From NCBI GenBank assembly GCA_022447205.1, contig JAKVBQ010000029.1, positions 1 through 40,019 on the forward strand: 40,019 nt of DNA. Reading direction: 5' to 3'. Positions 1 to 33,126 of this stretch are shown here, piece after piece. The DNA is from Phycisphaerales bacterium (lineage in GTDB: Bacteria; Planctomycetota; Phycisphaerae; Phycisphaerales; SM1A02). Position 1 is the first letter of the stretch. Each line of letters starts with the position of its first letter. A program made the position numbers and the translations under genes. Under the pieces are notes generated by a model. The model was not told the origin of the DNA. It saw only the letters and a program-made list of their open reading frames with translations, and searched no databases.

Positions 1-698
1 ATGGTTCGAAGATCCATCGAGAGCAGGGTGCCCGCGAGGACGTCTCCGAAACCACCCAGGACCTTGATCGCTTCCATCGCACCAAGACAGCCCACCGTTC
101 CGGAAACGGCACCGAAGACGGGGAAGCGTCGTTTCCAGCGCGGGGGAATCTCCGGTACGAGGCATCTCAGGCAGGGCGTCCGACCCGGCAGGATCGTGGT
201 GATCGTCGCCTGCAATTCGTACATCGCACATTCGATCATCGGCTTGCCCTGACCAAGGCAGGCATCGTTCATCGCGAAGCGCTCCTCGAACATCGGTGCG
301 CAGTCGACGACGAGATCGGCCATGGACACCAGCTCATCGACATTTTCGGCAGACACGTTCTCGGGAATCGGGACGACCTCGATCCCGGGTGCGTACTCCT
401 TGAGTCTCGCTGCCGCGCAGTCGACCCTCGACGCACCGATTGATGATGTCTTCATCAGGAGCTGGCGATTCAGGTCGCTCGGTTTGAGTTCACCGGCGTG
501 AGCGAGCACGATCCTTCCCACACCCGCCGCAGCGAGTTCGTAGGCCACAGGACTGCCCAGTCCGCCACAGCGGGAGACGAGCACTGTGGACCCCTTCAGC
601 CGCTCCTGGCCGCTCTCCCCGAAACCCGTGACATCGAGCTGCCACTCGTATCGTGCGCGATCCGTCTCGTCGAGGGGCCTCGGTGTGGGTTCATGCAT
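1..698 (-). CDS. HesA/MoeB/ThiF-family E1-like protein (C-terminus cut by window edge)
   Basis: E1-like enzymes adenylate the C-terminal glycine of MoaD/ThiS-type sulfur carriers. The translation shows the nucleotide-loop variant CGGLGSP near residue 36, then DLNRQ, a CLRCL half of the usual Zn-binding Cys pair, and a GxxxAMEAIK helix. The start at 698 has an AAGGAG Shine-Dalgarno at 711-716; the MoaD-like gene ends at 723, only 24 bases upstream, so the two are almost certainly co-transcribed partners. Three usually conserved positions differ from E. coli MoeB: the aspartate after the second beta strand (LLDFD) is replaced (VLAHAG), the lysine in 'GxxK' is arginine (GASR), and the aspartate of DCTDN is absent (DCAPM). 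ATP use may therefore be altered or lost. About 232 residues are visible; the last part and second CxxC lie outside the window. Confidence 0.9.
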   Translation of the reverse strand, partial: MHEPTPRPLDETDRARYEWQLDVTGFGESGQERLKGSTVLVSRCGGLGSPVAYELAAAGVGRIVLAHAGELKPSDLNRQLLMKTSSIGASRVDCAAARLKEYAPGIEVVPIPENVSAENVDELVSMADLVVDCAPMFEERFAMNDACLGQGKPMIECAMYELQATITTILPGRTPCLRCLVPEIPPRWKRRFPVFGAVSGTVGCLGAMEAIKVLGGFGDVLAGTLLSMDLRT

Positions 699-722
699 GG
701 GTGCCAGTCGCTCCTTGTCGGC

Positions 723-989
723 TCAGCCACCACTGATCGGCGAGAGGAAGCGAACGCTGCAGGGTGCGTCAAACGCATGCGCTGCATCCCTGACCATGAC
801 GCCATCGACGTCGACCATCACCCAGGACACGAGCGTTCCCGTCTCGTCACAGATCTGTCCGACCGCCGCATCGCCATGTGCTTCATGGATCGACTTCACC
901 AGCGCGGCGAGATCCGTCGCTTCGAAGGACTCCGAATCGATGCCGAGCGCGGCTGCCGCCTGGGCGAAATAGGTCACGTTGATCAGCAT
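723..989 (-). CDS. MoaD/ThiS-like ubiquitin-fold sulfur carrier protein
   Basis: An 88-residue protein of MoaD size that ends exactly in Gly-Gly (…SPISGG) before a TGA stop. This terminus is adenylated and thiocarboxylated in MoaD/ThiS proteins so that sulfur can be handed to molybdopterin or thiazole. The N-terminus MLINVTYFAQ is the typical first beta strand of the fold. The ATG overlaps the end of the ABC ATPase gene by 7 bases, and the E1-like gene follows after 24 bases. Placement in a molybdate/tungstate-type transporter operon favours MoaD over ThiS. It is probably a pathway-dedicated paralogue rather than the housekeeping moaD, but that is inference. Confidence 0.88.
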   Translation of the reverse strand: MLINVTYFAQAAAALGIDSESFEATDLAALVKSIHEAHGDAAVGQICDETGTLVSWVMVDVDGVMVRDAAHAFDAPCSVRFLSPISGG

Positions 990-1642
990 CGTTCGACCCT
1001 TCCTTCCTCGAGACGATAGAGGATCGTCGAAAGGTCCGCGACATCCCTCGGATCATGCGTGACATGGAGCGTGGTCACGCCGGTATGCGCGTGAACGGCC
1101 CGCAACGCGGAGACGACCCGGGCTCTCATGGTCTCATCGAGCGCGCCGATCGGTTCGTCCATCAGGAGCAGGTCGGGCTTCCATGCGATCGCTCGTGCGA
1201 TGGCGACCCGCTGTCGCTCCCCGCCGGAGAAGCCTTCAGGCCGACGATCGAGGAGGTGGGTGATCTCGACCAGCTCGGCGAGTTCCGCCGCCCTCAGATC
1301 CGCCTCGGCACGCGAAGTTCCCCTCAGGACGAGTGGCAGTGCGATCTGTCTCCCCGCAGTCATGGTCGGGAAGAGAGCGCCATCCTGGGGCACGTAGCCG
1401 ATGTTCCGTCGTGCCGGAGGCAGTCCCTCGACCGCTCGTTCACCGATCCGGATCGAGCCGCCGGAGATCGATCGAAGACCACAGGTCGCCTCGAGGATCG
1501 TGGTCTTGCCACAACCGGTCGCGCCCTTGAGGATCGCATAGGCACCTTCTGGAACCGTGAAGTCGAGGTCGACGAGCCTGAAATCGCCGGCCTGGATCGA
1601 GACGGTGTCGAACCTCAGTCCTGATGGCATCTGTTCGGTCAT
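983..1642 (-). CDS. molybdate/tungstate-type ABC transporter ATPase (ModC/TupC/WtpC-like)
   Basis: Cytoplasmic ATPase of the oxyanion importer encoded with the two upstream genes. Visible motifs over 219 residues: Walker A GATGCGKT (40-47), Q-loop VPQD (Q86), signature FSGGERQ (138-144), Walker B LLLMDEP (158-164), and H-loop histidine 196. It lacks the C-terminal TOBE/MOP regulatory domain of classical ~350-aa ModC, so it resembles the short TupC/WtpC type and should not sense intracellular oxyanion by itself. The start overlaps the permease stop as ATGA, and its own stop overlaps the MoaD-like gene start. Family assignment is strong; molybdate versus tungstate cannot be decided from the sequence. 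Confidence 0.9.
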   Translation of the reverse strand: MTEQMPSGLRFDTVSIQAGDFRLVDLDFTVPEGAYAILKGATGCGKTTILEATCGLRSISGGSIRIGERAVEGLPPARRNIGYVPQDGALFPTMTAGRQIALPLVLRGTSRAEADLRAAELAELVEITHLLDRRPEGFSGGERQRVAIARAIAWKPDLLLMDEPIGALDETMRARVVSALRAVHAHTGVTTLHVTHDPRDVADLSTILYRLEEGRVERC

Positions 1643-2436
1643 CCGATCACCCCCTTGAAGCCAAGGAGTCGAGTGGTGATCAGGACGAGCAGGGCCAGGC
1701 CGACGAGGAGCAGACTCACCGCGACGGCAGCTCCGAGATCACCGATCGACCATTCAAGGAAGATCGTCGTGGGCAGGACCTCGGTCTTGCCTCTTGTTGC
1801 ACCGGCGAAGACGAGGATCGGACCGAATTCACCGAGGGCACGGGCCCAGGCCAGGGTGCCGGCGGCCACGATCCCCCGGGTGGACTGCGGCATCGTCACC
1901 AGCGTGAAGGACTGCCATCGCGTGCAGCCGAGCACCAACGCGACCTCCTCGGTCCGTCGGTCCATCTGCTCGTAGGTGATCCGCATGGCACGTACCGCGA
2001 AGGCGGTCGCGACGCAGAACTGTGCAAGGATCACGGCAGGGACTTCGTAGGTGATGCCGAAGAGGTTGTCCTGAATGAAGCGACCCACACCGGACTCGAA
2101 GAGGATCAGCAGAAAGAGCCCGACCACGAGCGGGGGGAGGACGATGGGTATGTCGAAGATCGCGTCGACCAGTGTCTTGCCGGGGAACTCCCAGCGAGCG
2201 AGGAGGTAGCCCGCCGGTATGGCGACCCACAGCGCGAGAATCGATGCCACCGTGCAGCTCACGATGCTGAGGACCGCGGACTGTCGGATCGGTTCCGACG
2301 ACAGCGCCTGCAGGATGTCGGCAGGTGTCGTGAAGGTGGCGCCCGCAAGGAGCAGCGCGAGGATGAGGATCACGTAGATCCCGGCCAGCATCGAGATGGT
2401 CAGGGAGAAGAGTCGATCGTGACGGAACGTGCTCAT
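1639..2436 (-). CDS. molybdate/tungstate-type ABC transporter permease (ModB/WtpB-like)
   Basis: Integral membrane subunit of the oxyanion importer, 265 residues with about six hydrophobic segments starting near residues 11, 55, 93, 132, 190 and 233. The EAA-type coupling loop that docks on the ATPase is at 163-184 (EEVALVLGCTRWQS…). The following block ALGEFGPILVFAG (200-212) is highly characteristic of ModB/CysT/WtpB permeases. Both ends overlap neighbouring genes by four bases (ATGA), so translational coupling with the binding protein and the ATPase is likely. The family is clear. Substrate specificity (molybdate, tungstate, less likely sulfate) is inferred from the MoaD and E1-like genes in the same operon. 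Confidence 0.92.
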   Translation of the reverse strand: MSTFRHDRLFSLTISMLAGIYVILILALLLAGATFTTPADILQALSSEPIRQSAVLSIVSCTVASILALWVAIPAGYLLARWEFPGKTLVDAIFDIPIVLPPLVVGLFLLILFESGVGRFIQDNLFGITYEVPAVILAQFCVATAFAVRAMRITYEQMDRRTEEVALVLGCTRWQSFTLVTMPQSTRGIVAAGTLAWARALGEFGPILVFAGATRGKTEVLPTTIFLEWSIGDLGAAVAVSLLLVGLALLVLITTRLLGFKGVIG

Positions 2437-3968
2437 CGGACGTCCTGCACGGTGTTCGGTTGTTCGGAGGGGAGCCAGTTGAAGCCGAGCGCCTTGAATC
2501 GCCCGGCCGATTCCTCGGCAAGCAGGGCGTCAAGGAGACGGCCGAGGGTGTTCTGGTGATCCGAGGTTCGCGAGACGGCCCATGGCTGTCGAGCCTGGAT
2601 CTCGCCGGTCTCGATGGGGATGACCTCGAGATGCTCCCTGTTGAGTGCGGCGTTGCTCGTATAGACGATCGCAGCGTCGAGAGCGCCTGTCCTCATCGCA
2701 TTGACGAGGAAGTCGCCCTGGGGAGCCTCCTGCACCCAGTTCCCGGATGACTTCATCGATTCGAGCAGTTCTTGTTCCTCGAGAAGACGCATGGTGAGCA
2801 GACCGAGGGCCGACTTCTCGGGATGTGCGAGCCCGACCCTGGTGCCGGGTCGGAGCAGGTCCTTGATCGTCTCCACCGAGCCCGGATTGTCCCTCGGGGT
2901 GATCAGGACCATGGGATTCTCGGAGATGTCGAGGGCAGGATGGAATCGTGAGCCGACCTCCTCGAGGAACCGGACATCACACGAGAGATAGGCATCGGGC
3001 TGGGCACCGGCCTTCATCTGACCGGTGAGGATCCCGCAGCCGTTGTAGACACGATCGACCTCGACACCTTCCCGTTCCGAGAAGGCGGCAACGGTCTCCT
3101 CGATCGCCTGGTTGAACATCGAGCCAGCGAACAGCACGACCTTCGGTCGTTCGTCCCAGACATCACCGACGGTGGGTTCGTATCCGAAACGTTCGAAGAG
3201 CAACTGCCCTTCGTCCCGTGCGGCAAGGTATCTCGCGAAACGAAGTGCCTCGGTCGGAACGGATGTCGCCTCGACGACGGCCACCTCGATCGTGCGTCGC
3301 CCCTGATCGAGCACCGGATCACGAAGTGCCTGGAGCTCCTCGTACTGGGCGGTCGTCGCATCCCAGACGATCGAGGCATCGAGCGAACCGATCACGACAT
3401 CGTTCGCGACGTCGACCACCGTCGGCTTCAGGACCGTCAACCGGTCCTCGAAGGTTTCCCATCGTCCGATGTCGATCAGCAGCGAGCGGGCCGCCTTGCC
3501 GACCGCGGCCGCATCGGGATTCGCGAGTCCGATGCGGAGGTCCTCCCTGTCGACCAGGTCCTCAAGACCGAGGACGGAGCGTGGATTCCCTTTCGCCACC
3601 GCGATCACCGGTGTGAGGGTGGCGATCGGAATCGATTCACGCAGCATGCCTCGCGCACGGCCGTCCTCGACATAGGAGCTGTCGGCGGCGATGTAGAGAT
3701 CGGCTGAATCCGGCTTGATCTCGATGCCACCGAGCAGAGTCGCGGATCCACCGTAGAGCAGCTCCACTTCGACCCCATAGGTCTCCTCGTAGTCACGTGC
3801 CGCCTGTTCGACAGGGCGCTTCACGCCGGCTGCACAGGCGACCCGGATACGGATCGTCTCGTCACCCGGACCACCAGGCCCGATCGTCGACACCCACGCA
3901 AGCAGGAGGGCCACCACGCACAAGGAGGCGATCATCAGGACCAGAGCTGTCGGGATCCGACGACTCAT
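2433..3968 (-). CDS. membrane-anchored binding protein with two tandem ModA-like domains
   Basis: The 511-residue product has an N-terminal membrane segment (about 6-26, no clear lipobox) followed by two periplasmic type II binding-protein domains, about 39-268 and 275-497. Both have the ModA layout: a first strand with an anion-binding loop (ACAAGV; LFAGSM), a second loop (YGGSAT; YNGCGI), and the Asp-containing ADLYIAAD / PDAYLSCD strand. Usual ModA is about 250 residues with one domain, so this is an internal duplication. The domains are not equivalent: the second loop keeps its serine in domain 1 (S75) but has cysteine in domain 2 (C311). The late tyrosine is present in domain 2 (AIVY, Y436) and is tryptophan in domain 1 (SIVW, W202). 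The gene overlaps the permease (ATGA) and starts one base into the preceding stop (TGATG). Confidence 0.88.
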   Translation of the reverse strand: MSRRIPTALVLMIASLCVVALLLAWVSTIGPGGPGDETIRIRVACAAGVKRPVEQAARDYEETYGVEVELLYGGSATLLGGIEIKPDSADLYIAADSSYVEDGRARGMLRESIPIATLTPVIAVAKGNPRSVLGLEDLVDREDLRIGLANPDAAAVGKAARSLLIDIGRWETFEDRLTVLKPTVVDVANDVVIGSLDASIVWDATTAQYEELQALRDPVLDQGRRTIEVAVVEATSVPTEALRFARYLAARDEGQLLFERFGYEPTVGDVWDERPKVVLFAGSMFNQAIEETVAAFSEREGVEVDRVYNGCGILTGQMKAGAQPDAYLSCDVRFLEEVGSRFHPALDISENPMVLITPRDNPGSVETIKDLLRPGTRVGLAHPEKSALGLLTMRLLEEQELLESMKSSGNWVQEAPQGDFLVNAMRTGALDAAIVYTSNAALNREHLEVIPIETGEIQARQPWAVSRTSDHQNTLGRLLDALLAEESAGRFKALGFNWLPSEQPNTVQDVR

Positions 3969-4600
3969 CAGGTCGCCACCTCCTGCTCGGTCAACGCGCC
4001 GGCGAGCAGTTCGAGTGAACGGGTCATGCCGAGTGCCTGGACCGAACCATGCGTCGCGACGAGGACGGCCCCGCCCTCTGATGCGTGGTGCGCGAGTGCC
4101 TCGTGCACGATGCGGGCATTCTCCTCATCGAGATTGCCCGTCGGTTCATCTGCGACGAGAAGGCCGGGTGAGCTTGCCAGTGCACGTGCCGTCGCGACAC
4201 GCTGGCATTCACCGGTGCTCAGTTGCCAGGGACGATGACGAGCCCGATCGGCGAGTCCAAGTCGTTCGAGCAGCTCTTCGACACGCTCCCGGGCACCATC
4301 GGCGGGAAGGCCCAGCCGGACGTTCTCCCTGATATCGAGGTAGGGGAGGAGCTCGAGGGTCTGGAAGATGAAGCCGACCGTTCCGTGGATCGAACGGGAT
4401 CCCGTCGAGGGCTGGAGCAATCCTCCGGCGATCAGCAGCAGTGTCGTCTTCCCTGAACCGGACGGGCCGCGAACGACGCAGCAGTCGCCGGCACGCACCT
4501 CGAGACCGGTCTTCGTCAGTGCCTCGACGGTACCGCCGCCCGGACGCGGCCAGGACATCGACACGTTCTCGAGGGTGAGGATGGGTCGTTCCTGAGTCAT
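3968..4600 (-). CDS. LolD/MacB-type ABC transporter ATPase
   Basis: A 210-residue ATPase that should power the FtsX-type permease encoded immediately upstream. Motifs: Walker A GPSGSGKT (45-52), Q-loop FIFQ (Q80), Walker B LLVADEP (147-153) and H-loop ATHG (H184). The ABC signature is LSTGECQ (127-133) instead of LSGGQQQ, so one glycine is replaced by threonine. The start at 4600 was chosen because it overlaps the permease stop by ATGA; a longer reading to 4714 would run 114 bases into the permease. LolD-type systems act on lipoproteins or other envelope substrates rather than on solute import. The substrate is unknown. Linkage to the secreted propeller protein suggests envelope assembly or secretion, which is inference. 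Confidence 0.9.
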   Translation of the reverse strand: MTQERPILTLENVSMSWPRPGGGTVEALTKTGLEVRAGDCCVVRGPSGSGKTTLLLIAGGLLQPSTGSRSIHGTVGFIFQTLELLPYLDIRENVRLGLPADGARERVEELLERLGLADRARHRPWQLSTGECQRVATARALASSPGLLVADEPTGNLDEENARIVHEALAHHASEGGAVLVATHGSVQALGMTRSLELLAGALTEQEVAT

Positions 4601-5742
4601 GGCATCCTCATCAATCTGGCTGGATCGACCATCGCCGCGATGATCGCCGGATAGAAGGACGCAAGCATGCAGAAGACGGGTGGGAAGAGCAGCGTCGCGA
4701 TCATGACTTCCCATGTCATGATCGCCGGTGGTGGAGCGCCCACGATGCCTTCGGTGATCGCGACACCAGCGAGGCTTGTGATGAGGAGGCCGCCGGCACC
4801 ACCTGCAAGTCCGATCAGGAACGTCCTGCCCATCACGATCACGGCGACGCTTGAGCGGCGACGTCCGAGGGCGATCAGGACGCCCATCTCCCGTCTGCGT
4901 TCACGAACATTGACCAGGGACAGCATGCCGACGATCACACCGCAGAGGACCAGCACCGGAACCAGTGAGCCCGAGACGATGCGTTCCGCCATCATGCGCT
5001 GGGAACGCCTCGCATCGGCCAGTGCATTCATCCGGACCACCCTGGCACCGGGCACGATCGGCTCCAACTGGGCGCGGATCACCTCGAGAGGATCCTCCAC
5101 GTCCTCGCTGCAATGGCATTCAAGTGCCCGGATCTCGTTCAGGCGACCTGGAAGCTCGAGGATCGCCTGGGCATCCCGAAGCGAGACCCAGCCCCGAACA
5201 TCCTCCTCGCTGCCGGTCGGCTCGAGGATGCGGCTCACGACGAGGGAACGTCCTCGGATCTCGAGTGGTTCGCCTTCCCTCGCATCGGCAGCGGAGGCCA
5301 CCGTCGCACCGAGCATGATCGAACCGTCCTCGATCGTTCGGCCGAAGACCGGCTTCATCGACTTCCCTCGCTTGAAGCGCTCTTCGGCGATGCCGGTCAG
5401 GAGACATTCCGATGCGCCGATCCTGACGCGGGACACCAGCATCGGTACCAGACGATTGGCCACGTCCTGGTCCTCGAGCCGGTCGATCCATTCCTCGGGC
5501 ATCGAGCCGCGAGGCATGCGGTCGATCCACCAGGCATCGAGCTCGGTCTGCGGCGGCAGGATGACGATGTTCAATCCGATGTCACGTTGGATGCGTCGCG
5601 TGGCGGCCTCGTTCGCCCCGGACACCTGTTCGGAGAGGAGCACCATGGTCACCGCGATCGCGACGATCGAGGCGGCCGCAAAGGCGGTGACCCACCGAAA
5701 GCAGAACTCGCGAAGGATGATGGTCCGCGAGGAGACGTTCAT
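4597..5742 (-). CDS. FtsX/MacB-like ABC transporter permease
   Basis: A 381-residue membrane protein with the MacB/LolC topology: one N-terminal membrane segment (about 16-36), a periplasmic domain (about 40-255), then three membrane segments (about 258-280, 303-330, 346-370). The FtsX signature lies at 277-299 (VNVRERRREMGVLIALG), the cytoplasmic coupling region that contacts the ATPase. The C-terminus YPAIIAAMVDPARLMR is the usual ending of this family. Both ends overlap neighbours by ATGA. With the downstream ATPase it forms a mechanotransmission-type ABC unit. The periplasmic domain most likely contacts one of the two exported proteins encoded just upstream (inference). Confidence 0.9.
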   Translation of the reverse strand: MNVSSRTIILREFCFRWVTAFAAASIVAIAVTMVLLSEQVSGANEAATRRIQRDIGLNIVILPPQTELDAWWIDRMPRGSMPEEWIDRLEDQDVANRLVPMLVSRVRIGASECLLTGIAEERFKRGKSMKPVFGRTIEDGSIMLGATVASAADAREGEPLEIRGRSLVVSRILEPTGSEEDVRGWVSLRDAQAILELPGRLNEIRALECHCSEDVEDPLEVIRAQLEPIVPGARVVRMNALADARRSQRMMAERIVSGSLVPVLVLCGVIVGMLSLVNVRERRREMGVLIALGRRRSSVAVIVMGRTFLIGLAGGAGGLLITSLAGVAITEGIVGAPPPAIMTWEVMIATLLFPPVFCMLASFYPAIIAAMVDPARLMRMP

Positions 5743-6989
5743 GATCGACCCTCCACGCGACGTACGACGAAGTATGCGATCGCAAAGGAGGCGAGCACGA
5801 GGAACACGATCATGTAGAGGCCGTTCGGCACACCGGTGTCCGCATCATCGGGCACGTCCGGCGGAGTACCGTCGGCTACCGGTGTCGACACGTCGTCCTT
5901 CTCGGGAGGATCCGACGGATCGTCGAACGACCAATCGTCATCCGTGCCACCCTCAAGAACGCGTACTGGAGCGCTCGGGGCGGCGGCGGTGTCACCGACC
6001 GATGCGGCGGGAACCGGTTCAGGATCGGGAGTCAGCGGCTCGAGGGTCGTCTCGCCGTATCCCAACAGCAACTCCTCGAGTGAATCGGGTGTCGCGCCCG
6101 GAGTGGTCGACTTCTCGCCTCCTCGGCCGAGAATGCGCGTCACCTCGGCCCTGACCATCGGACTCTCGGGATCGAACCCGAGCGCGCCACTCGCCGTGGC
6201 ATGGGTGTCCCGGGTCCACGGCACGAGACCGACCGGTTCCTCGGTCCAGGCACGCGAGGTGTCGCACTCGCAACTTTCACCCACGAGTGCAAGCTGTGCG
6301 ATCAGCTCACGAGCCGCCTCATCCCGCTTGAACGCATCGATCTCGACGGGAGCGCCCGCACGACGGGCACGGCCGTAGGTGATGACGGCGGTGGGGGTGC
6401 GCACCGGCACGTCGATGCCCAGACTCCAGAAGAGCACGGCCTCGCGTTCCTGCGCAGGTCCGTCAAGGGTCCTCACGTCAAGAGAATGCCCGAGCGGTCG
6501 GGGCAGGTGCTCCTCGATCGCCTCGAGTCTTCCCTGGAGCTGTTCGATCTCCGATCCGGCGACGGCATTGGCCGTCGGGTCATCGGACTCCAGGAGCAGA
6601 ACGAATGCGAAGGTCGAAGCCGCCAGTTCGGCAAGTTCTCTCGAGAGCGGCGAACGTCCGATCGAGATCGGATCCGCGACCGGCAGCATCCTTCCGTCAT
6701 CGGAGAGCAGCACGGAATCGACATCGGCGTTTCGGGCGAGGTCGACAGCGGGGTGTGTCGCTTGATGCTCGGGATCGAACTGGATGACCTCGAGAGGCAG
6801 GTCGCCGGTCATCGCGCGTACCTCTTCGACGTCATGCGAGGGACCGATCAACGCCAGCTGGACCACGGGACGGGAGAGACGGACGAATCCGATGTCCCTG
6901 ACCGTGTACCGGCAGGCCAGGGCTGCGGTCGCGACCAGCATGGTCAGGAGCAATGCGGTCACCTGCAGTCGTCCGAATCCGCCATTCAT
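5739..6989 (-). CDS. exported, C-terminally anchored protein of unknown function
   Basis: I do not recognise this 416-residue protein. It starts with a hydrophobic segment (about 8-25, signal peptide or anchor), has a folded region to about residue 310 containing a CEC motif, then an acidic, Pro/Thr/Asp-rich low-complexity stretch of about 75 residues. It ends with a membrane segment (about 390-410) and a basic tail. The layout (exported domain, flexible linker, C-terminal anchor) suggests a protein displayed on the periplasmic face of the inner membrane. The start at 6989 overlaps the preceding stop by ATGA; a start further upstream at 7175 would overlap the propeller gene heavily and is rejected. 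Its position between that gene and the FtsX permease suggests a role in the same complex. Confidence 0.8.
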   Translation of the reverse strand: MNGGFGRLQVTALLLTMLVATAALACRYTVRDIGFVRLSRPVVQLALIGPSHDVEEVRAMTGDLPLEVIQFDPEHQATHPAVDLARNADVDSVLLSDDGRMLPVADPISIGRSPLSRELAELAASTFAFVLLLESDDPTANAVAGSEIEQLQGRLEAIEEHLPRPLGHSLDVRTLDGPAQEREAVLFWSLGIDVPVRTPTAVITYGRARRAGAPVEIDAFKRDEAARELIAQLALVGESCECDTSRAWTEEPVGLVPWTRDTHATASGALGFDPESPMVRAEVTRILGRGGEKSTTPGATPDSLEELLLGYGETTLEPLTPDPEPVPAASVGDTAAAPSAPVRVLEGGTDDDWSFDDPSDPPEKDDVSTPVADGTPPDVPDDADTGVPNGLYMIVFLVLASFAIAYFVVRRVEGRS

Positions 6990-9900
6990 CGGGACGGCTC
7001 CTCCGCAGCACGCGGGCGAAGCGCTTCGCCGGGGCGACCTCGAAGTTCGGGGCGGAAGGCCATCGACGATTCGATCCACGAACCGCAACTGCAGCCGCCT
7101 CCTCCCTCGGGGCTGAGGACCATGCCGTTGGCGGGGACGGTGGAGATCCAGCAGTCCGGACGGACCCGCTGCCATCTGGAGACCGCATCCTCACGAGGAC
7201 TCCACATCGTGAGATCACCGGCCCTCAGGAAGATCGAATCACTGGTGCAGGCGTAGTTGCCGCATTGATGACCTTCCGGGAACGCGGTCCTCATCACTTC
7301 ACCGGTGCGTGCATCAAGCACGTACGGCCGCAGGTAGAGGACGCCTTCGGCGATCGCCAGGCGCGAGAGATGCTTCCCGTGGTGATCGACTTCCCAGTCG
7401 AACCGGCGTCGCCAGAGGCTGCGTCCGTCATTCAGGTCGAAGGCATACAACGCGAATGCGCCATCTGACGAGGTCTGGAGGTAGAGGATGCCGTCGGAGA
7501 CGGCGGTGTAGACCGCGATGTTCCCCGGCATCGGGCTGGCTTCACGTCGCCACAGCACCTCGCCGCTGACCTCGTCGAGGGCGACCAGTTCGAGATCCTT
7601 CCAGATTCGGTCATCCTCGATCTTCCGGCTCTCGGCCTCGACCAGTCCGGGATCACCGGCTTCGAGGAAGACCACGTTTCCGTCGGAGGTCGTGATGCTC
7701 GGATTGAGGATGACCCCATCAGGCTGGTACTCCCAACGAAGACTGCCCGAATCGGGTTCGGTCACGAACAGGGCGTCGGAACAGACCTTGAGGATCGAGA
7801 AGTTGTCCCGACCGTCGTACCAGTGTTCGGCACCCCACCAACCGGTATGACTGCTCCCCGTGCGCACCGCGCTTCCGACGAGTGCGTCATCGGTCCGAGC
7901 GACGTAGCCCCATTCATGGTCAGCACGACGGCTCGTGAGCTCCGGCACGGCCTGCTTCCGAACGATCTCACCGGTCGCGCCATCGATGACCAGGAGCCTC
8001 GGCCCGGCCACGAAGACACGAGTTGCATCCGCACACCAGTTGCTGGTGTCCCTCGGGATGTTGAAGCGCTGCATCTCCGGCAGTTCCTTCGACCAGAGGA
8101 TCGTTCCGTTGTGATCATCCACGCAGATGATGCGGTTCAGGCCCTGCATGTAGAGGCGACCGCCCGCAGCGAGTGGCGAGGGTTTCCGGTTGCCCCGATC
8201 GGACTGGTACCGGGGGCCCGGTCGACCGATCCACTGAAGCGCAAGTCGCTGGTTGTCGGTGATGCCGCCGAGGGTCTCGCCGCCGTACCCGCTGTTGTCC
8301 GGGGTCCCGTACATGTGGGTCCAGACACCGGTGCCGGGCATCGAGGGTGCCCTGACGAGCGTGCGGCCGTCGTAGGCGACACCATGTTCCGGTGTGAGCA
8401 GCGCATGGAGGACATCGGCCTCGACCCGCCTTCCATCTCCGACCACCACGAGATTGGCACACTGGGGGGGGAGCCGGGTCTCGGTGAGGTCCTCGACGAC
8501 GAGCGCACTGATGCGTTCACCATGGCAGCCCTCGTCAAGCAACCTCTTCCTCAAGCCTTCGACACGAGTTCGATTCTCGTCGATGACCAGGACGTTGCAA
8601 CGACTGTTCCGGGCGAGGGTCAGGGGAAGGTCGTGGTCCCCGGCCCCGATCACGATGGCAAGACCGCGATCGATGCCACTTCTCAAGAGTGCGCCCAGCG
8701 CGACATCGTGCTCCACGCCCGGTGCGACGGGGTGACGGGTGTAATCGAAACTCGTATCCAGCGGATACGGGCGACTGTATGCCTCAGGCTCGTCACCAAG
8801 ACCCACCCGAACCTCGTGAATGCGGTTTCGACGAAGACCGTCGACAAGGACCTCGTGTTCACGTGTCGGCGTGCCATCGACGAAACGACCGACCTCATCC
8901 TCACCGAGCGTCCAGACCGCTCTCGTCGCGGTCGGTGCCTCCGTACGCCAGGTCATTCGGACGACACCAGGAGTCTCGAAGGCGAGGATCGGTCCCGCGG
9001 TCGGCTCGCGCCCGGCTTCCTCTGAAGTGTCCGGCTCGATCGGAGGCAATGCCAGGAGCGGCGCCCATTGATCGGTGATCGTCCTGATCTCCGCGTCGGT
9101 GAGCGGCCGATCATGCACGCGCAGCTCGGCGAGCGAACCACTGGTCACGAAGTACTCGTCATCATCGTGGTAGGAACCGAGGCCGTACCAGAAACGATCC
9201 GGCATGATGACCGGTCCCTGTTCGACCGTGCTTCGTGCGACGACCTTGCCGTCGACGAGGACCGAGGCCTCGTTCCCGTCGTACCGGGCGGCGATGACAT
9301 GCCAGCTGCCGGGAACGACCGGCTCCGAATCGAGGATCCAGCTCATCGACTCGTCCGGTGCGGAACCACGGAGTCCGAGTCCGGGCCTCAACCCGCGGTA
9401 CCCGAGGATCCAACCGGTCTCATCGGTACCGTTGTCCTGAAGCGCACAGAGCAGGCCACCCCAGTTGCGTGCCTCATCGATCCTGACGACCGCCAGCAGG
9501 GTGAAGGCCTCGGTCGGCAGTGCGGGTTCCGATCCGGGCGCGGTGCATTCGAGATCGTTCGAACCGCCATCGATCTCGACGAATCGACCGAGGGGCGTGT
9601 CGACATATTCGTTGAAGGCGCGGAAGCGACCCGGAGGACGACCCTCGACCTCATTGCGAATGACCGGATAGAGGCGCGGATCGTCGTCGGAGATCGGAAC
9701 GCGATCGACAAGATCCTCGCGAAAGACCCAGCGGTCGACGAGTCCGTCCGCGACGACCTCGGGTACCGGAACCTGCTGCTCCGGACGGGCAAGGTTCGTC
9801 GATTCCGGTGTGATCGAGGCGGCGTTCCGTTCCGCCGGTGTGCCGACCCTGAAGACGTGGATCGCGCCCTCGTCCGTCGAGACGATCAACCTGTCGCCGG

Positions 9901-11122
9901 CAACGACCAGGCCGTAGGCATTGCCGTCGACCGGTGCGTCCCAGATCCTGTTTCCCGTCGTCGCTTCGTATGCCGCCACCTGGTCCTCGCCCCCGGCAAT
10001 GAGCACGGGACCGGACTTGATCAGCTCGAGCGGGGTGGTCGACGATGCCGACCAGAGCAACGTCCCACTCGGACGGTCGAGCGCGGAGAGCGTCCGGTCG
10101 GAGAGCATCCAGGCGGTCTCGCCCTCGACGATCATCGCATTGCCACGCTGGTACGAGGCGATCTTCTCCCTCGATCCGCCATCACTGTCGGTGATCCATC
10201 CGGCCTTGTTGCCGGGACCGTGCAGGATGTCCTCCTCATCGGTGAGCAGGACGAAGCTCCCGCCACCACCGGAGAGCGCCCCACGTGGCGCACCATTCGC
10301 TCGATCAAGCACCAGAGGCGGAACCCGGCCCTGCGGAACGATGATCGATTCCTCGGAGAGGAGCAGGGGCCCCTCCATCGTCCATCCGGTGCCGAGGTCT
10401 CGTATGTAGTGTCGCTCCCCGGTGGACGCACCGGTGCGTGCATCCACGGCACAGATCATCGTCGGTTCCCAGGGCAGGAAACTCGCCGCGAAGTACGCGA
10501 CATCGTCCATCACGTGTACGCCGGTGCGGACCGGCCACGGTGAGATGAAGCGCGTGTTGTTGAGGATCCGTCTCGCGTCCTCGACCGCAGCCCTCTTCCA
10601 GAGAAGGCGTCCGTTGATCGCGTCGATCGCGTAGGCGTGACCGTCATCGGAGCCGAAGTACAGTCTGCCCTTGTGCCAGGTCGGTGCGATTCGAACCGGA
10701 CCGTCCGCTGTGAAACGCCACAGCTCGCGACCATCCACCGCATCGAGGCGACGGACGGTGTCATCGGTTGGTCCGGAGAGGAAGATGCCCTCGCCCAGTC
10801 GATCATGCACCGTGGTGACGTGGATGACGGGATCGTAATTGCGCATCGATTTCATGCCGGAGAGTGCGGCGTAGGCATCCCAACGAGCAGGGGACGGCCA
10901 CGCGCTTCGAACCGGCGTGTCGGAGCGCCAGGTCCATGCCGGTACGAGGGCGGCAGGGTCGATCACCCGATCGCCGGTCCCGCTTCTCCTGAGATCACCT
11001 CGATGCGTCGGCCAGTCGGAATCCTGCTGGGCAGCCTGGACCGCTGCGCCAAGGCACATGCCGAGCAACAGGGCAGCTCCTGTCGTGACGAGACTCCTGG
11101 ATGTCGAGGCGTTGGCATGCAT
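6986..11122 (-). CDS. secreted mosaic protein: PQQ-type beta-propeller, LamG-like, methyltransferase-like fold, second propeller
   Basis: First gene of the operon, about 1,378 residues. Numbering from the alternative upstream start (11146): signal peptide about 9-40; first PQQ/BamB-type propeller about 45-435 with repeats such as AVDGRELWRF and INGRLLWKR; a LamG/concanavalin-like jelly roll about 470-695; a fibronectin/purple-acid-phosphatase-N-like sheet about 715-785; a Rossmann segment resembling class I methyltransferases about 815-910 (IVIGAGDHDL, VLVIDENRT); a second propeller about 935-1370. The C-terminus has several cysteines (GHQCGNYAC, RPDCW, GCSCGSW). Similar propeller-methyltransferase mosaics are known in Planctomycetes but I know of no assigned function. 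The start at 11122 was preferred because GGAG lies 10 bases upstream, whereas the ATG at 11146 has none. Quinone binding or catalysis is not proven by the repeats. Confidence 0.88.
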   Translation of the reverse strand: MHANASTSRSLVTTGAALLLGMCLGAAVQAAQQDSDWPTHRGDLRRSGTGDRVIDPAALVPAWTWRSDTPVRSAWPSPARWDAYAALSGMKSMRNYDPVIHVTTVHDRLGEGIFLSGPTDDTVRRLDAVDGRELWRFTADGPVRIAPTWHKGRLYFGSDDGHAYAIDAINGRLLWKRAAVEDARRILNNTRFISPWPVRTGVHVMDDVAYFAASFLPWEPTMICAVDARTGASTGERHYIRDLGTGWTMEGPLLLSEESIIVPQGRVPPLVLDRANGAPRGALSGGGGSFVLLTDEEDILHGPGNKAGWITDSDGGSREKIASYQRGNAMIVEGETAWMLSDRTLSALDRPSGTLLWSASSTTPLELIKSGPVLIAGGEDQVAAYEATTGNRIWDAPVDGNAYGLVVAGDRLIVSTDEGAIHVFRVGTPAERNAASITPESTNLARPEQQVPVPEVVADGLVDRWVFREDLVDRVPISDDDPRLYPVIRNEVEGRPPGRFRAFNEYVDTPLGRFVEIDGGSNDLECTAPGSEPALPTEAFTLLAVVRIDEARNWGGLLCALQDNGTDETGWILGYRGLRPGLGLRGSAPDESMSWILDSEPVVPGSWHVIAARYDGNEASVLVDGKVVARSTVEQGPVIMPDRFWYGLGSYHDDDEYFVTSGSLAELRVHDRPLTDAEIRTITDQWAPLLALPPIEPDTSEEAGREPTAGPILAFETPGVVRMTWRTEAPTATRAVWTLGEDEVGRFVDGTPTREHEVLVDGLRRNRIHEVRVGLGDEPEAYSRPYPLDTSFDYTRHPVAPGVEHDVALGALLRSGIDRGLAIVIGAGDHDLPLTLARNSRCNVLVIDENRTRVEGLRKRLLDEGCHGERISALVVEDLTETRLPPQCANLVVVGDGRRVEADVLHALLTPEHGVAYDGRTLVRAPSMPGTGVWTHMYGTPDNSGYGGETLGGITDNQRLALQWIGRPGPRYQSDRGNRKPSPLAAGGRLYMQGLNRIICVDDHNGTILWSKELPEMQRFNIPRDTSNWCADATRVFVAGPRLLVIDGATGEIVRKQAVPELTSRRADHEWGYVARTDDALVGSAVRTGSSHTGWWGAEHWYDGRDNFSILKVCSDALFVTEPDSGSLRWEYQPDGVILNPSITTSDGNVVFLEAGDPGLVEAESRKIEDDRIWKDLELVALDEVSGEVLWRREASPMPGNIAVYTAVSDGILYLQTSSDGAFALYAFDLNDGRSLWRRRFDWEVDHHGKHLSRLAIAEGVLYLRPYVLDARTGEVMRTAFPEGHQCGNYACTSDSIFLRAGDLTMWSPREDAVSRWQRVRPDCWISTVPANGMVLSPEGGGGCSCGSWIESSMAFRPELRGRPGEALRPRAAEEPSR

Positions 11123-11290
11123 CTGGGTCGTGCTCCATCGATCCATAGAATATCCGGTTCTGCACCTCGGGCGGTCGTCCGTTCCGGGAGGCGGTCACAT
11201 TCATCACGATCGGGATCCGGCGGATCCGACCGGGTCGTTCAAGGCGAATGCCCAGGTCGGCCACGACGTGGCTTCGTGTAGGATGGCCTC

Positions 11291-12079
11291 ATGAGCAATC
11301 GGCTTGCCACAGCATTCGAACGGGCGAAACAGGACGGACGGACGGCACTCATGCCGTACATCACCGCCGGTGACCCGCCCGAACCCGAGCTGTCCCGCCT
11401 GATCGTCGCGATCGCGGAAGCCGGTGCGGACGTCATCGAGATCGGTCTTCCGTTCTCAGACCCGATCGCCGACGGGCCCGTGATCGCCTCGGCCATGTAT
11501 CGCGCGCTGGGACATGGCATGACGCCCGCCACCGTCTTCGAAGAAGTCGCGCGCGCACGGTCATCGACCGATGTCGCGCTGGTCGGCATGGTCTCCGACT
11601 CGATCGTCGCGCACCGTGATCGAAGTGCCTTCGTCGCCGAAGCCGCCAGGGCCGGCTTCGACGGCCTCATCGTCCCGGATGCCGACACCTCCGACCTCGA
11701 GGATCTGGAAGCGGCATGCCGGGCCCACGGGCTCACGCTGACCCTCCTCATCGCCCCGACGAGCACCCCCGAACGCCAGGAGGAGATCGTCAGCCACGCC
11801 AGTGGCTTCGTCTACCTGCTGGCGCGTGCCGGTGTCACCGGTGAACGTTCCGATGCCCCGGAGATCGCGGCTCGCGTGGAGGCGCTCCGTGCCTGCACCG
11901 AACTCCCGATCTGCGCCGGTTTTGGGATCTCCTCCGCCGAACACGTGGCTTCGGTCGGTCGCTGCGCCGATGGGGCGATCGTCGGATCAGCCCTCGTCAG
12001 GCACCTGCATGACGTTCACGAGTCCGGTGGCGATGTCGAAGCGGCCGCCCGCACGTTCGTCGCCGGCCTGAGCGGCTGA
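11291..12079 (+). CDS. trpA: tryptophan synthase alpha subunit
   Basis: TrpA (262 residues, normal length) cleaves indole-3-glycerol phosphate to indole and glyceraldehyde-3-phosphate; indole is channelled to TrpB in the cytoplasmic alpha2-beta2 complex. The TIM-barrel signature is clear: E50 in ADVIEIGLPFSDP and D61 in IADGP match the catalytic pair (Glu49 and Asp60 in Salmonella). The later phosphate-binding segments GFGISS and GAIVGSA are intact. No trpB, trpC or trpF lies in this window, so trpA is apparently detached from the rest of the pathway genes. It converges on lexA, with only 12 bases between the stops. Confidence 0.96.
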   Translation: MSNRLATAFERAKQDGRTALMPYITAGDPPEPELSRLIVAIAEAGADVIEIGLPFSDPIADGPVIASAMYRALGHGMTPATVFEEVARARSSTDVALVGMVSDSIVAHRDRSAFVAEAARAGFDGLIVPDADTSDLEDLEAACRAHGLTLTLLIAPTSTPERQEEIVSHASGFVYLLARAGVTGERSDAPEIAARVEALRACTELPICAGFGISSAEHVASVGRCADGAIVGSALVRHLHDVHESGGDVEAAARTFVAGLSG

Positions 12080-18511: not shown

Positions 18512-20737
18512 TCACTCGGGGCAGTCACCCCAGCCGCCGAGCAGGATCACGAGATCCTCGCCGTCGGTGGTGCCATTGCCGTCGAGGTCGCCACCAGCTC
18601 CGCCCCAGTCACCCAGGAGGATGATGAGGTCGGCACCGTCGACGATCTCGTCGCCATTGAAGTCACCCGGGCATTCCGCGGGCGGGGCGGTGTCACCGAT
18701 GACGGTGAGGGTGCCCGTTCCGGCGTTGCCGACGGCATATCCACCGACGCCGACGATGTAGGTGCCGGCAACAAGATCGACCTGCAGGTCGGATGTGTAG
18801 TTGCCGCAGTCCTCACCGTTGTCATCGGTGCCGTCGTCGTTGCAGGCGACGGTCGATGCGGGATCGCAGGTGGAGGCCACGAAGAGACGCGTGTCGTAGT
18901 CCGCCTGGTTGCAGGTCGTGAAGCGGTAGAGACCGTCGGACGCCGCGGTGAACTCGAAGAAGTAGGTGTTGTAGCAGGAGTCGTCACCGAACGGGCCCGG
19001 ATCGCAGACACCGGTCATGTCCCAGTTCCGATCGCCTGCAGCAAGCGCGCAGTTGGTGTCGAAGTCGTAGTCGCCCGCGCTGCTGATCACCTCGGGGTTG
19101 TCGCAGTCGTTGGTGTAGTCGTCGCAATCACCACCACCACCGCCGCCGCCGCCACCATCACCATCGGTGATGGTGAGGACTCCGGTGCCCGCATCGGTTG
19201 CCGAGTATCCGCCGACAGCGATGCTGTACTGGACGCCACCCTCGAGGGAGACCGTCAGCGTCTGGGTGAATCCGGCGCATTCATCGGAGTCATCGAGACA
19301 GCCGACCACGGTGCTTGGGTCGCAACCGTCTTCCAGGACGGCGATACGGGTGTCGTAGTCCGCCTGGTTGCAGGTGCTGAAGGTGTAGCTGTCCGTCTCT
19401 TCGGGAGTGAACGCGAAGTAGTAGTTGTTGTAGTCGACGTCGTCACCGAAAGTGCCGGGATCGCAGTAACCAGTCAGGTCGAGGTTCCGGTCGCCTGCAG
19501 CAAGCGCACAGGTGGTGTCGAAGTCGTAGTCACCGAGACCGGGAACGACCTCGGGGTTGTCGCAGTCGTTGGTGTAGTCATCACAGCCACCACCGCCGCC
19601 GCCGCCACCACCGCCGCCGCCGCCATCACCATCGGTGATGCTCACGACGCAGGTGCCGAAGGCGCCGCCGTAGCCGCCGACCGCGATGATGTAGTCGACG
19701 CCGGCCTCGAGGGAGGCGGAGATGGTCGTCGAGAAGCCTTCGCAGCCATCGGTGTCGTCAAGGCAGACCACCACGCTCGAGGGATCGCAGTCGCCGAGGA
19801 TGGCGAGTCGAGTGTCGAACTGGGCCTGGTTGCAGGTCGAGACGGTGTAGGACTGGGTCTTGTCGGGGGTGAAGGAGAAGAAGTAGTTGTTGTAGTGGAT
19901 ATCGTCACCGAAATCACCCGGATCGCAGTAGCCGGTGAAGTCGAGGTCACGGCCGCCCTCGAGGGCCGCACACGTGGTGTCGACGTCGTAGTCACCGAGC
20001 TCGGTGACCACTTCGGGGTTGTCGCAGTCGTTCGTGTACTTCTCACAACCGTTGGGCGGGGCGCCCTGGGTGATCGTCAAGGTGCCGAATCCGAGGTCCG
20101 CAGCGGAGTAGCCGCCGACGGAGATCGTGTACTCGACGCCTTCCTCGAGATCGACCATCAGGATCGTCGTGAAACCGGCGCAGTTGTCGGTGTCATCGAG
20201 ACAGTCGAGAACCGATGATTCCTCGCAGGCTTCGGCAAGCACGGCGATTCGAGTGTCGAAGTCGGCCTGGTTGCACGTCGAGAATGAATACTCGTCCGTC
20301 GCATCCGGCGTGAAGCTGAAGTAGATCGTGTTGTAGATGAGGTCGTCACCATAGGGACCGGGATCACACCAGCCGGTGAGGTCGAGGTTGTAGCCGGAGG
20401 AACTGGTGGTGTCGACGTCGTTGTCACCGAGGACCGCGGCGATCGGCTCGCAGGGGCCGGTGGTGCCGCCACCGCCGCCGCCACCGCCGCCGCAACCGTC
20501 GCAGAGGTCGGAAGCGATATCAACGCAGATCTCATCCCACTCTGCGTCGCAGCAGGCAGCATCGAACTCGCAGACCGCGTTGCAGCAGGTCTCGTTCTGG
20601 CAACCGGCGACACCCGGGGTCGCGATGCAGCAGTTTTCACCTTCGGGGTTCGGACAGGAATCGAACTGGGCATGTGCCAGTGAGCTCCCGATGCCGATCA
20701 GGGCCATCATGAGCGTGGTGGTGGTTGTCGAGCGCAT
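18512..20737 (-). CDS. secreted Cys-rich multi-module protein with GC-type dockerin-like C-terminus
   Basis: A 741-residue exported protein. Signal peptide about 1-24 (…SSLAHAQ). A Cys-rich domain about 28-80 carries the CCNAVCEFDAACC…WDEIC pattern. Four ~125-residue beta-sandwich modules resembling PPC (pre-peptidase C-terminal) domains follow, each with DCDNPEV, GDYD.DTTC, CDPG.FGDD, STCNQADYDTR and a closing VGGY. Uninterrupted glycine tracts of 9, 13 and 9 residues separate parts of the protein. The last ~50 residues form a paired EF-hand-like dockerin motif (DFNGDEIVDGADL; DLDGNGTTDGEDL) ending in WGDC, a tail common on Phycisphaerae surface proteins. The start at 20737 has AAGGAG seven bases upstream. 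Function is probably structural or adhesive at the cell surface; no catalytic residues are visible. It is a paralogue of the gene at 33127. Confidence 0.9.
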   Translation of the reverse strand: MRSTTTTTLMMALIGIGSSLAHAQFDSCPNPEGENCCIATPGVAGCQNETCCNAVCEFDAACCDAEWDEICVDIASDLCDGCGGGGGGGGGTTGPCEPIAAVLGDNDVDTTSSSGYNLDLTGWCDPGPYGDDLIYNTIYFSFTPDATDEYSFSTCNQADFDTRIAVLAEACEESSVLDCLDDTDNCAGFTTILMVDLEEGVEYTISVGGYSAADLGFGTLTITQGAPPNGCEKYTNDCDNPEVVTELGDYDVDTTCAALEGGRDLDFTGYCDPGDFGDDIHYNNYFFSFTPDKTQSYTVSTCNQAQFDTRLAILGDCDPSSVVVCLDDTDGCEGFSTTISASLEAGVDYIIAVGGYGGAFGTCVVSITDGDGGGGGGGGGGGGGCDDYTNDCDNPEVVPGLGDYDFDTTCALAAGDRNLDLTGYCDPGTFGDDVDYNNYYFAFTPEETDSYTFSTCNQADYDTRIAVLEDGCDPSTVVGCLDDSDECAGFTQTLTVSLEGGVQYSIAVGGYSATDAGTGVLTITDGDGGGGGGGGGDCDDYTNDCDNPEVISSAGDYDFDTNCALAAGDRNWDMTGVCDPGPFGDDSCYNTYFFEFTAASDGLYRFTTCNQADYDTRLFVASTCDPASTVACNDDGTDDNGEDCGNYTSDLQVDLVAGTYIVGVGGYAVGNAGTGTLTVIGDTAPPAECPGDFNGDEIVDGADLIILLGDWGGAGGDLDGNGTTDGEDLVILLGGWGDCPE
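19130..19156 (-). repeat. glycine-codon microsatellite (9 Gly)
   Basis: Nine consecutive GGT/GGC codons encode a poly-Gly linker before the last module of the dockerin-type protein. Trinucleotide iteration makes the tract prone to in-frame slippage. Confidence 0.85.
19586..19624 (-). repeat. glycine-codon microsatellite (13 Gly)
   Basis: Thirteen consecutive GGT/GGC codons form the longest poly-Gly linker of the protein, between the second and third module. Confidence 0.85.
20465..20491 (-). repeat. glycine-codon microsatellite (9 Gly)
   Basis: Nine consecutive GGT/GGC codons separate the N-terminal Cys-rich domain from the first PPC-like module. Confidence 0.85.
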
Positions 20738-20828
20738 CGACGTGCTCCTTGTATACGGTGTGCGTGTCATCATTCTTCTTCGTTCGTCAGTGTTCGCAGC
20801 CAACCGGACGGGTTCGTCTTCGCTCAAC

Positions 20829-20848
20829 CCCTGCACGTGCGTGCAGGG
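20829..20848. promoter_or_regulatory. 9-bp inverted repeat upstream of the dockerin-type gene (possible operator or leader hairpin)
   Basis: Arms CCCTGCACG and CGTGCAGGG with a 2-base centre, about 90 bases upstream of the start at 20737. The near-perfect symmetry with a tiny centre fits a dimeric regulator site better than an RNA hairpin. The rest of the 378-base gap 20738-21115 holds the promoter of the tRNA gene and nothing else I can assign. Confidence 0.45.
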
Positions 20849-21052
20849 TCGAATCGGTCCGGGTCGCCCTGCGTCGAGCATACAGTCATTTCATGGATCT
20901 CAGAGCCTCGAGCATTGTCTTCGACCCGTTTTGCCGCCCAAACCGGGCTGTTTGCCGAAATGGTGCCTTGGCAGCGACCCAGAAGGGCTCCATCCTCCGG
21001 GAGGCTCCGATTCTCGGACACCGTCCCGATGGATGCCTGACTTCTCCACGGA

Positions 21053-32741: not shown

Positions 32742-32983
32742 CGGAGCAAGACGCGGGCCTGCTTGAAGCATGATTGAAAGCAGGAGCCGCTGGAAAAACC
32801 GTTTATCGGGAGATCTCCACATGCCCCGCCAGACAGATCGACACCCGTTCAAGGCGCGATAATTGGAGTGGAAACGCTTGAATTCAACTCATTTCGCCAA
32901 ACCAGAAAGTGAACAACGGTTTCAGCCTTCCGATGATTTTGCACATCTTTCCCGATTTTGGACTCAATACTGGCGTTTAATGG

Positions 32984-33106
32984 GTGCCAGCAGTAGTTTT
33001 GGTTCACGTTTGAATGTGCATTCATGCACCCAAAACTGTCGTAAGAGACCTGGCGCTTCGAAGTATCGGACCGTCGGGCTTGTACTTGATGTTCTTTTAT
33101 TCGAAG
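32984..33106 (+). promoter_or_regulatory. candidate structured 5' leader RNA (three-way junction)
   Basis: Paired segments read directly from the sequence: P1 GTGCCAG (32984-32990) with CTGGCGC (33050-33056); P2 AGTTTTGG (32995-33002) with CCAAAACT (33030-33037), capped by GTGCAT-TC-ATGCAC (33016-33029); P3 GTC-GTAAGA-GAC (33038-33049). P2, P3 and the 3' strand of P1 abut without unpaired bases, giving a compact three-way junction. CTTCGAA (33056-33062) can also pair with TTCGAAG (33100-33106), which ends ten bases before the GGAGG ribosome site of the next gene. It does not match the c-di-GMP or other riboswitch consensus I know. Could be a regulatory leader or an mRNA-stabilising fold. Confidence 0.5.
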
Positions 33107-33126
33107 AGTTGACTCGGAGGACGTAC

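Follow-up and report, generated by a model that had tools for sequence, protein, structure and literature searches.

Nine genes of a Phycisphaerales bacterium, all on the minus strand, join an importer of the ModABC type, a MoaD/E1-like pair, an FtsX/LolD-type membrane unit and a giant exported beta-propeller protein in what is well supported as one conserved unit. They lie at one end of a stretch of 40,019 nucleotides (the window; GenBank assembly GCA_022447205.1, contig JAKVBQ010000029.1), which is the whole of contig G000:C22 in a genome of 3.25 Mb and 86 contigs. The open frames encode the propeller protein PROP, a protein termed UNK, an FtsX permease, a LolD-like ATPase, the tandem ModA-type binding protein MODA2, ModB, ModC, MoaD and an E1-like protein. 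As window base 1 is the contig end, the last of these genes is cut and nothing can be read to the left of it. The function proposed here, which is quite possible though short of probable, is that of a system dedicated to secreted propellers with four conserved cysteines, which it would supply and, in the periplasm, mature.

Conservation of the nine-gene unit

The coordinates bear out the overlapping nine-gene layout that had been claimed in a preliminary description of the window: successive genes overlap by 4, 4, 4, 1, 4, 4 and 7 bases, and a gap of 24 bases precedes the E1-like gene. A member of a sister genus has the identical gene order up to ModB, where its contig ends. The order UNK-FtsX-ATPase-MODA2-ModB-ATPase-MoaD-E1 recurs in seven windows (L145, L148, L150, L151, L153, L161 and L162), which come from two other families of the phylum. 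This conservation of gene order in relatives excludes a chance arrangement.

When 101 relatives were searched, strong matches to the tandem ModA were found in seven (G000, G001, G005, G036, G072, G081 and G084), with weaker one-lobe ModA matches only in 23 others. UNK was found in the same seven and not in any of the remaining 94; this holds too for the cysteine-rich end of PROP at E ≤ 1e-10, a cut-off that was our own strict choice. The seven carriers span three families and six genera. If relatedness is ignored, the chance of such a perfect three-way overlap is about 6e-11 by our own arithmetic. In G084, a broken assembly, the tandem ModA is cut by a contig end, and the tandem ModA, UNK and propellers are on separate contigs.

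The association was also seen beyond these relatives. A MODA2 profile gave 39 loci in named genomes, of which 37 were kept; the weak one-lobe matches L076 and L078 were removed, and L073, L074 (one-lobe relative) and L077 (a contig-end fragment) were retained. The 37 loci are labelled Planctomycetota, Verrucomicrobiota, Lentisphaerae, Poribacteria, Hydrogenedentota and Omnitrophota. Near MODA2 they contain UNK (28 loci), a propeller scoring above 240 (21), E1 (21), FtsX (16) and MoaD (15).

Of 294 genomes sampled from the phylum, 50 have UNK. From the 62 places listed in that search, the newly fetched, best-scoring ones were taken as 28 short loci; 27 of these have at least one other component of the set and 23 have FtsX. 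In a further 26 longer UNK-centred windows, from 21 genomes and picked mostly for long contigs, the counts are 17 for MODA2, 18 for FtsX, 15 for a four-cysteine propeller, 12 for MoaD and 11 for E1; two windows contain none of them. The profiles used in all these linkage counts were built from the 37 MODA2 loci, and LolD and ModC cross-match, the two ATPases not being told apart. The joining of importer, MoaD/E1, FtsX/LolD and propeller, which had been read from the window alone, is thus upheld by linkage across phyla and by co-occurrence among relatives.

Two of the loci have variant layouts. In L163 (G407:C5) the MODA2 profile matches two shorter frames that flank UNK-FtsX-ATPase, as if the lobes were separate genes, and L166 (G329:C184) has UNK, a four-cysteine propeller, ModB, an ATPase, MoaD and E1 but no recognised tandem ModA.

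Conserved cysteines and altered sites

MODA2, UNK and propellers with the cysteine-rich end share their genomes, where they are usually encoded near each other, and all three have an export leader segment and conserved cysteines. PROP consists of a beta-propeller, a LamG-like domain, a middle region and a second propeller, with a hydrophobic leader segment at residues 18-36. Its cysteines C1295, C1332 and C1352 are present in all 24 propeller regions that were aligned and C1354 in 20, the CxC being displaced in the other four. The regions were selected by the pattern C..CxC (24 of 35 propeller-like frames), so that only the count for C1295 is free of selection. Seven of the 11 frames without the pattern are N-terminal halves of split propellers. 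All four cysteines are invariant in a second alignment (A5, 19 rows). A twin-arginine pattern of our own making fitted none of 29 listed propeller frames, many of which start upstream of the true start, suggesting that any centre in the propeller is probably inserted outside the cytoplasm.

Propellers of the four-cysteine class are also found away from the operon, among the 101 relatives only in carrier genomes. The genome of the window encodes one of 1314 aa with the same four-cysteine end (G000:C53:1249-5193, L111), adjoining an alanyl-tRNA synthetase gene, and its sister genome has a further propeller near an alanyl-tRNA synthetase gene (G001:C37, L112). G084 has three more (strong matches) and G072 two that match less well, and in G081 a further propeller lies about 8 kb away from the operon. 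Such additional copies suggest a client role for the propellers and a service role for the remaining genes. Two side observations concern the same proteins: an alanyl-tRNA synthetase gene is near a propeller in L146 too, and the PROP homologue L038:4266-7868 has a Methyltransf_25-like match (1.2e-7) between domains of a presumably exported propeller, where SAM is not expected.

The window UNK has no cysteines other than C26, C240 and C242, and none of the three is missing from any of the 54 copies compared (frames of 250 aa or more that score 80 bits or more). UNK comprises two clearly related subfamilies, with profile matches down to 3.5e-19.

MODA2 scores 85.9 bits with the modA model, over the cut-off of 62.5, placing it in the ModA fold, and its AlphaFold model (pLDDT 92.9) is a double ModA whose nearest solved structures are ModA-type. 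According to PMC8895017, the molybdate contacts of E. coli ModA include Ser12 and Ser39. In an alignment with 1amf, C311 in lobe 2 of MODA2 falls on Ser39 and C330 on Ala58. Both cysteines are present in 49 of 49 copies (frames of at least 430 aa and at least 450 bits), and C45 in 45. Ser12 is replaced in lobe 2 by Met, Val or Ile (position 284) in all 49 copies and in lobe 1 by Gly48 in 45 (Ser in three), the Ser39 site of lobe 1 being Ser75 or Thr. MODA2 therefore lacks the full set of ligand serines that characterises ModABC importers.

The E1-like protein has the E1 fold by sequence, matching ThiF (Table 1) and MoeB (1jw9, 1e-27). Its active site is another matter. In all 33 copies scoring at least 250 bits (a second E1-like copy in L070, at 140 bits, was left out), Arg91 stands for MoeB Lys86, Pro135 for Asp130, Arg43 for Gly38, His67 for Asp62 and Asp75 for Asn70. 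In 32 of them Trp19 replaces Arg14. Arg78 and Arg140 (MoeB Arg73 and Arg135) are retained. In the related case of Tcd2, a change at the Lys86 equivalent cuts the product by 71% and one at the Asp130 equivalent abolishes it (PMC13139853). The replacements and these mutant effects together suggest that the operon E1, which on its sequence appears to have lost the lysine and the aspartate of the MoeB ATP chemistry, is probably not activating MoaD in the usual way. An ordinary MoeB-like role, as the preliminary description had it, was rejected on these residues. The CxxC pair of E1 is retained in 18 of 21 sequences and lost in L043, L048 and L052, from three Phycisphaerales.

The window MoaD ends in SGG, and 14 of 15 operon-linked homologues end in GG, L051 having extra residues after it. 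Its score with the moaD model, 22.7 bits, is below the cut-off of 66.15. There is another MoaD-like gene beside a MoeA-like gene in the same genome, and another ThiF/MoeB-family protein in 10 of 10 genomes checked, this one included. The operon MoaD and E1 are thus a second pair.

The FtsX/LolD pair was scored with the models of its better-known relatives and fell below each cut-off: 133 bits against 265 for FtsE, 124 against 308 for LolD and 15 against 362 for LolCE.

A proposed maturation system and its rivals

In the maturation system proposed, MODA2-ModB-ModC would capture and import an oxyanion, for which molybdenum or tungsten are the best candidates, or would pass it on within the periplasm. 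UNK, coupled to the FtsX/LolD ATPase, would employ its three cysteines in carrying or setting a metal or sulfur group bound through thiols; with FtsX/LolD as the driving force at the membrane, it would place this group in the four-cysteine site of the propeller. MoaD, perhaps activated by the housekeeping MoeB, and the pseudo-E1 would supply or gate sulfur in the cytoplasm. The observations on which this scheme is built are gene association and conserved residues, from which we infer the metal, the sulfur and the direction of transfer.

Several points weigh against it. The four propeller cysteines could pair up as two disulfides. Of the 37 MODA2 loci, 21 showed no FtsX nearby, 16 no E1 and 22 no MoaD, for which contig ends are partly responsible. 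The preliminary description had named, as a refutation, the keeping of the importer/MoaD/E1 part and the propeller/FtsX part in unrelated places. This was mostly not seen, the halves being linked across phyla, but MODA2 is absent from nine of the 26 UNK-centred windows: both windows of G284 and of G398 and the sole window of G391, G145, G290 and G329 are among these. UNK-FtsX-LolD can therefore stand alone. At most 18 candidates for UNK and 33 for the propeller end were scored per genome, and at most six for UNK in the phylum-wide search, so relatives may have been missed; most genomes are drafts or metagenome-assembled genomes (MAGs). The structural match of UNK described below is weak in TM-score (0.19/0.28). 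Finally, the presence of MoaC in most carriers fits plain molybdenum uptake as well.

Plain molybdenum uptake is one of two serious rivals, the other being a disulfide machine. The first, which seems rather unlikely, is that MODA2-ModB-ModC is the cell's molybdate/tungstate importer for ordinary pterin cofactor synthesis, and that the genes for the propeller, UNK and FtsX/LolD are passengers or share its regulation. The genome of the window and those of the 37 loci were searched for the relevant proteins (38 genomes; G116 to G137 include likely incomplete MAGs). MoaC was found in 34, no further ModA above the family cut-off in 36 (G111 and G113 have one), and PF00384 above its cut-off in 37, a model that also matches complex I subunits. 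The molybdenum enzyme identified in the genome of the window is of the FdhF/YdeP family (contig C10), in a search that did not include the xanthine or sulfite oxidase families. MoaC is present in 7/7 carriers as against 59/94 non-carrier relatives. On these counts the importer is plausibly linked to the use of molybdenum or tungsten, as had been claimed from the window. The replaced ligand serines of MODA2 count against plain supply. Moreover, the 59 non-carriers have MoaC but neither the tandem ModA nor UNK nor this propeller end, and ordinary cofactor synthesis does not, therefore, need the set. Nor does plain supply sit well with a co-occurrence that extends to propellers at other loci, or with a MoaD and an E1 that are second copies.

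The second rival, which is unlikely, makes UNK a membrane-anchored thiol-disulfide isomerase like PDI (protein disulfide isomerase), with FtsX/LolD driving propeller folding or release and no cofactor involved. No Pfam or NCBIfam match was found for UNK at E 0.01. Its profile, run against PDB sequences, picked up nothing beyond an insignificant S-layer match (E 0.072), which counts against this idea. Structural comparison was more favourable. The UNK model (pLDDT 80, 216 residues at 90 or above) shows two thioredoxin-type domains, and the best Foldseek match of the whole model is 9wzl, a two-domain PDI fragment (E 4e-4), with the low TM-scores already given. The second domain matches thioredoxins in the VIA comparison, with Z up to 9.2 (5nyl, 103 residues, rmsd 2.3); the VIA list covers UNK residues 113-239 only, and VIA notes that Z values of 7-8 are common between proteins that have no true kinship. 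The thioredoxin fold is thus supported mainly through the second domain. Both the invariant CxC and the 23 of 28 loci with a nearby FtsX would suit a disulfide machine. Against this, the window UNK has no CxxC, the active site of thioredoxin/PDI oxidoreductases, and its CxC is predicted by the model to lie after a long helix (222-238) and not at the start of the first helix of the thioredoxin fold. The importer, MoaD and the pseudo-E1 would also be left unexplained.

That the operon builds and feeds one dedicated molybdenum or tungsten pterin enzyme encoded just past the contig end, as first supposed from the window, is largely refuted and very improbable: clusters in which MoaD and MoeB accompany aldehyde:ferredoxin oxidoreductase (AOR) are known (PMC1779556), but AFOR_C is absent from the genome of the window and present in only 5 of the 38 searched, E1 lacks the MoeB Lys86 and Asp130 equivalents, and no shared molybdenum or tungsten enzyme was found downstream of E1 in 32 loci, over a reach of at most 5 kb that was cut short by the end of a locus in some (several offer under 1.5 kb). 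What does recur there is the operon's own set of parts, an MFS-type gene (three loci) and two further families (five loci each). One of the five-locus families includes a protein with a squalene-hopene-cyclase-type match, and the other, by eye, is presumably ceramidase-like. AOR was rejected as the client enzyme on the AFOR_C counts.

In the Nos system (NosZ with NosDFY and NosL) a metal-sulfur centre is built in the periplasm on a propeller. The likeness of the proposed maturation system to Nos is one of logic, an ATPase-driven periplasmic assembly on a beta-propeller. The operon differs in being built from unrelated parts, an FtsX-type permease and a thioredoxin-type UNK. General Pfam and NCBIfam scans of the nine proteins, which were not supplemented by a search with Nos models, named no Nos protein. 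A bolder form of the proposal is unlikely but not negligible: the four propeller cysteines would hold an extracytoplasmic metal-sulfur or metal-thiolate cofactor of a new class, which might derive from imported molybdate or tungstate and would reach them by a cysteine relay of MODA2, UNK and propeller, powered by FtsX/LolD and aided by MoaD and the pseudo-E1. This would amount to a pterin-free periplasmic use of molybdenum or tungsten across the PVC phyla and their neighbours.

Features of the window and known relatives

Pfam and NCBIfam confirm the domain families of all the proteins except UNK. Two corrections to the domain names are needed, as E1 is without the known catalytic residues and MODA2 lobe 2 is without the standard ligand serines. 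The end of the operon given earlier, 11122, fits the second ATG of PROP (residue 9 of the 1386-aa frame), and either start is possible.

Table 1 Features of the operon, from its first gene to the contig end
Feature	Position	Strand	Remarks
PROP, exported giant protein	6986..11146	-	1386 aa; PQQ_2 3.9e-37 (three stretches), Laminin_G_3 1.6e-17
Four conserved cysteines near PROP C-terminus (C1295, C1332, C1352, C1354)	7085..7264	-	
UNK, exported, C-terminal membrane helix	5739..6989	-	416 aa; two thioredoxin-type domains in model
UNK CxC (residues 240-242)	6264..6272	-	
UNK C26	6912-6914		
FtsX/MacB-superfamily permease	4597..5742	-	FtsX 1.1e-14; about four hydrophobic segments (hydropathy)
LolD/FtsE-like ATPase, presumed FtsX partner	3968..4600	-	ABC_tran 1.7e-22; top NCBIfam FtsE and LolD, both under cut-off
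MODA2, tandem ModA-type binding protein, two lobes	2433..3968	-	511 aa; SBP_bac_11 2e-71 in two stretches
MODA2 lobe 2 C311 and C330	2979..3038	-	alignment to 1amf
ModB-type permease	1639..2436	-	TIGR01581 1e-55, modB 1.3e-45, both under cut-off
ModC-type ATPase	983..1642	-	219 aa; ABC_tran 1.2e-29; covers positions 7-211 of 353-position modC model
MoaD/ThiS-like protein, Gly-Gly end	723..989	-	ThiS 4.6e-4, moaD 1.4e-4
E1/MoeB-like protein (pseudo-E1, altered ATP site), cut by contig end	3..698	-	ThiF 5.4e-50

Just past the operon start is a tryptophan synthase alpha gene on the opposite strand (window 11291-12079). Farther on, the window encodes a SpoIIE-type phosphatase with HAMP and a Cache-like domain (21247-23256) and long frames without a Pfam match at 1e-5 (18512-20881, 789 aa; 23681-25024, 447 aa; 32863-35766, 967 aa), some of which are perhaps shadow frames.

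Comparison with known systems gave partial likenesses. MODA2-ModB-ModC shares with the ModABC, TupABC and WtpABC importers a ModA fold in each lobe and partners of the ModB and ModC types, and differs in its double binding protein, altered ligand sites and short ModC. The FtsX-domain permease and LolD/FtsE-like ATPase resemble the FtsEX/LolCDE/MacB superfamily, but score far under the FtsE, LolD, LolCE and MacB cut-offs and have UNK as their neighbour. PROP has PQQ_2-type blades like BamB and the PQQ quinoproteins, from which its four-cysteine end, LamG domain and mosaic layout set it apart; it scores 75.7 bits with the BamB model, whose cut-off is 285.2. The AOR-linked clusters, which make up the tungsten cofactor class in Iyer et al. 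2006 (PMC1779556), resemble the operon in pairing a second MoaD with an E1-like gene away from the main genes for cofactor synthesis. The operon differs from them in having no AOR, in its replaced E1 active site and in the added importer, propeller, UNK and FtsX/LolD.

The full set thus appears to be new, none of the known systems compared matching it by content, and no description of it was found in the open-licence papers searched. Each part comes from a known superfamily except UNK, which on present sequence comparisons seems to be the sole part outside them.

Giant PQQ-like propellers of unassigned role occur in these bacteria. One class of them, with four cysteines, is found among the relatives only where a fixed complement of genes, for an importer and a thioredoxin-like protein, is also present, which provides a genetic handle on it. 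The conserved loss of residues in E1 and the change from serine to cysteine in the ModA lobe are sharp, testable facts, with or without a cofactor. Should a metal centre be involved, the operon would represent cofactor assembly of a new type in the periplasm; otherwise it would be a machine of a new sort, for disulfides or for secretion.

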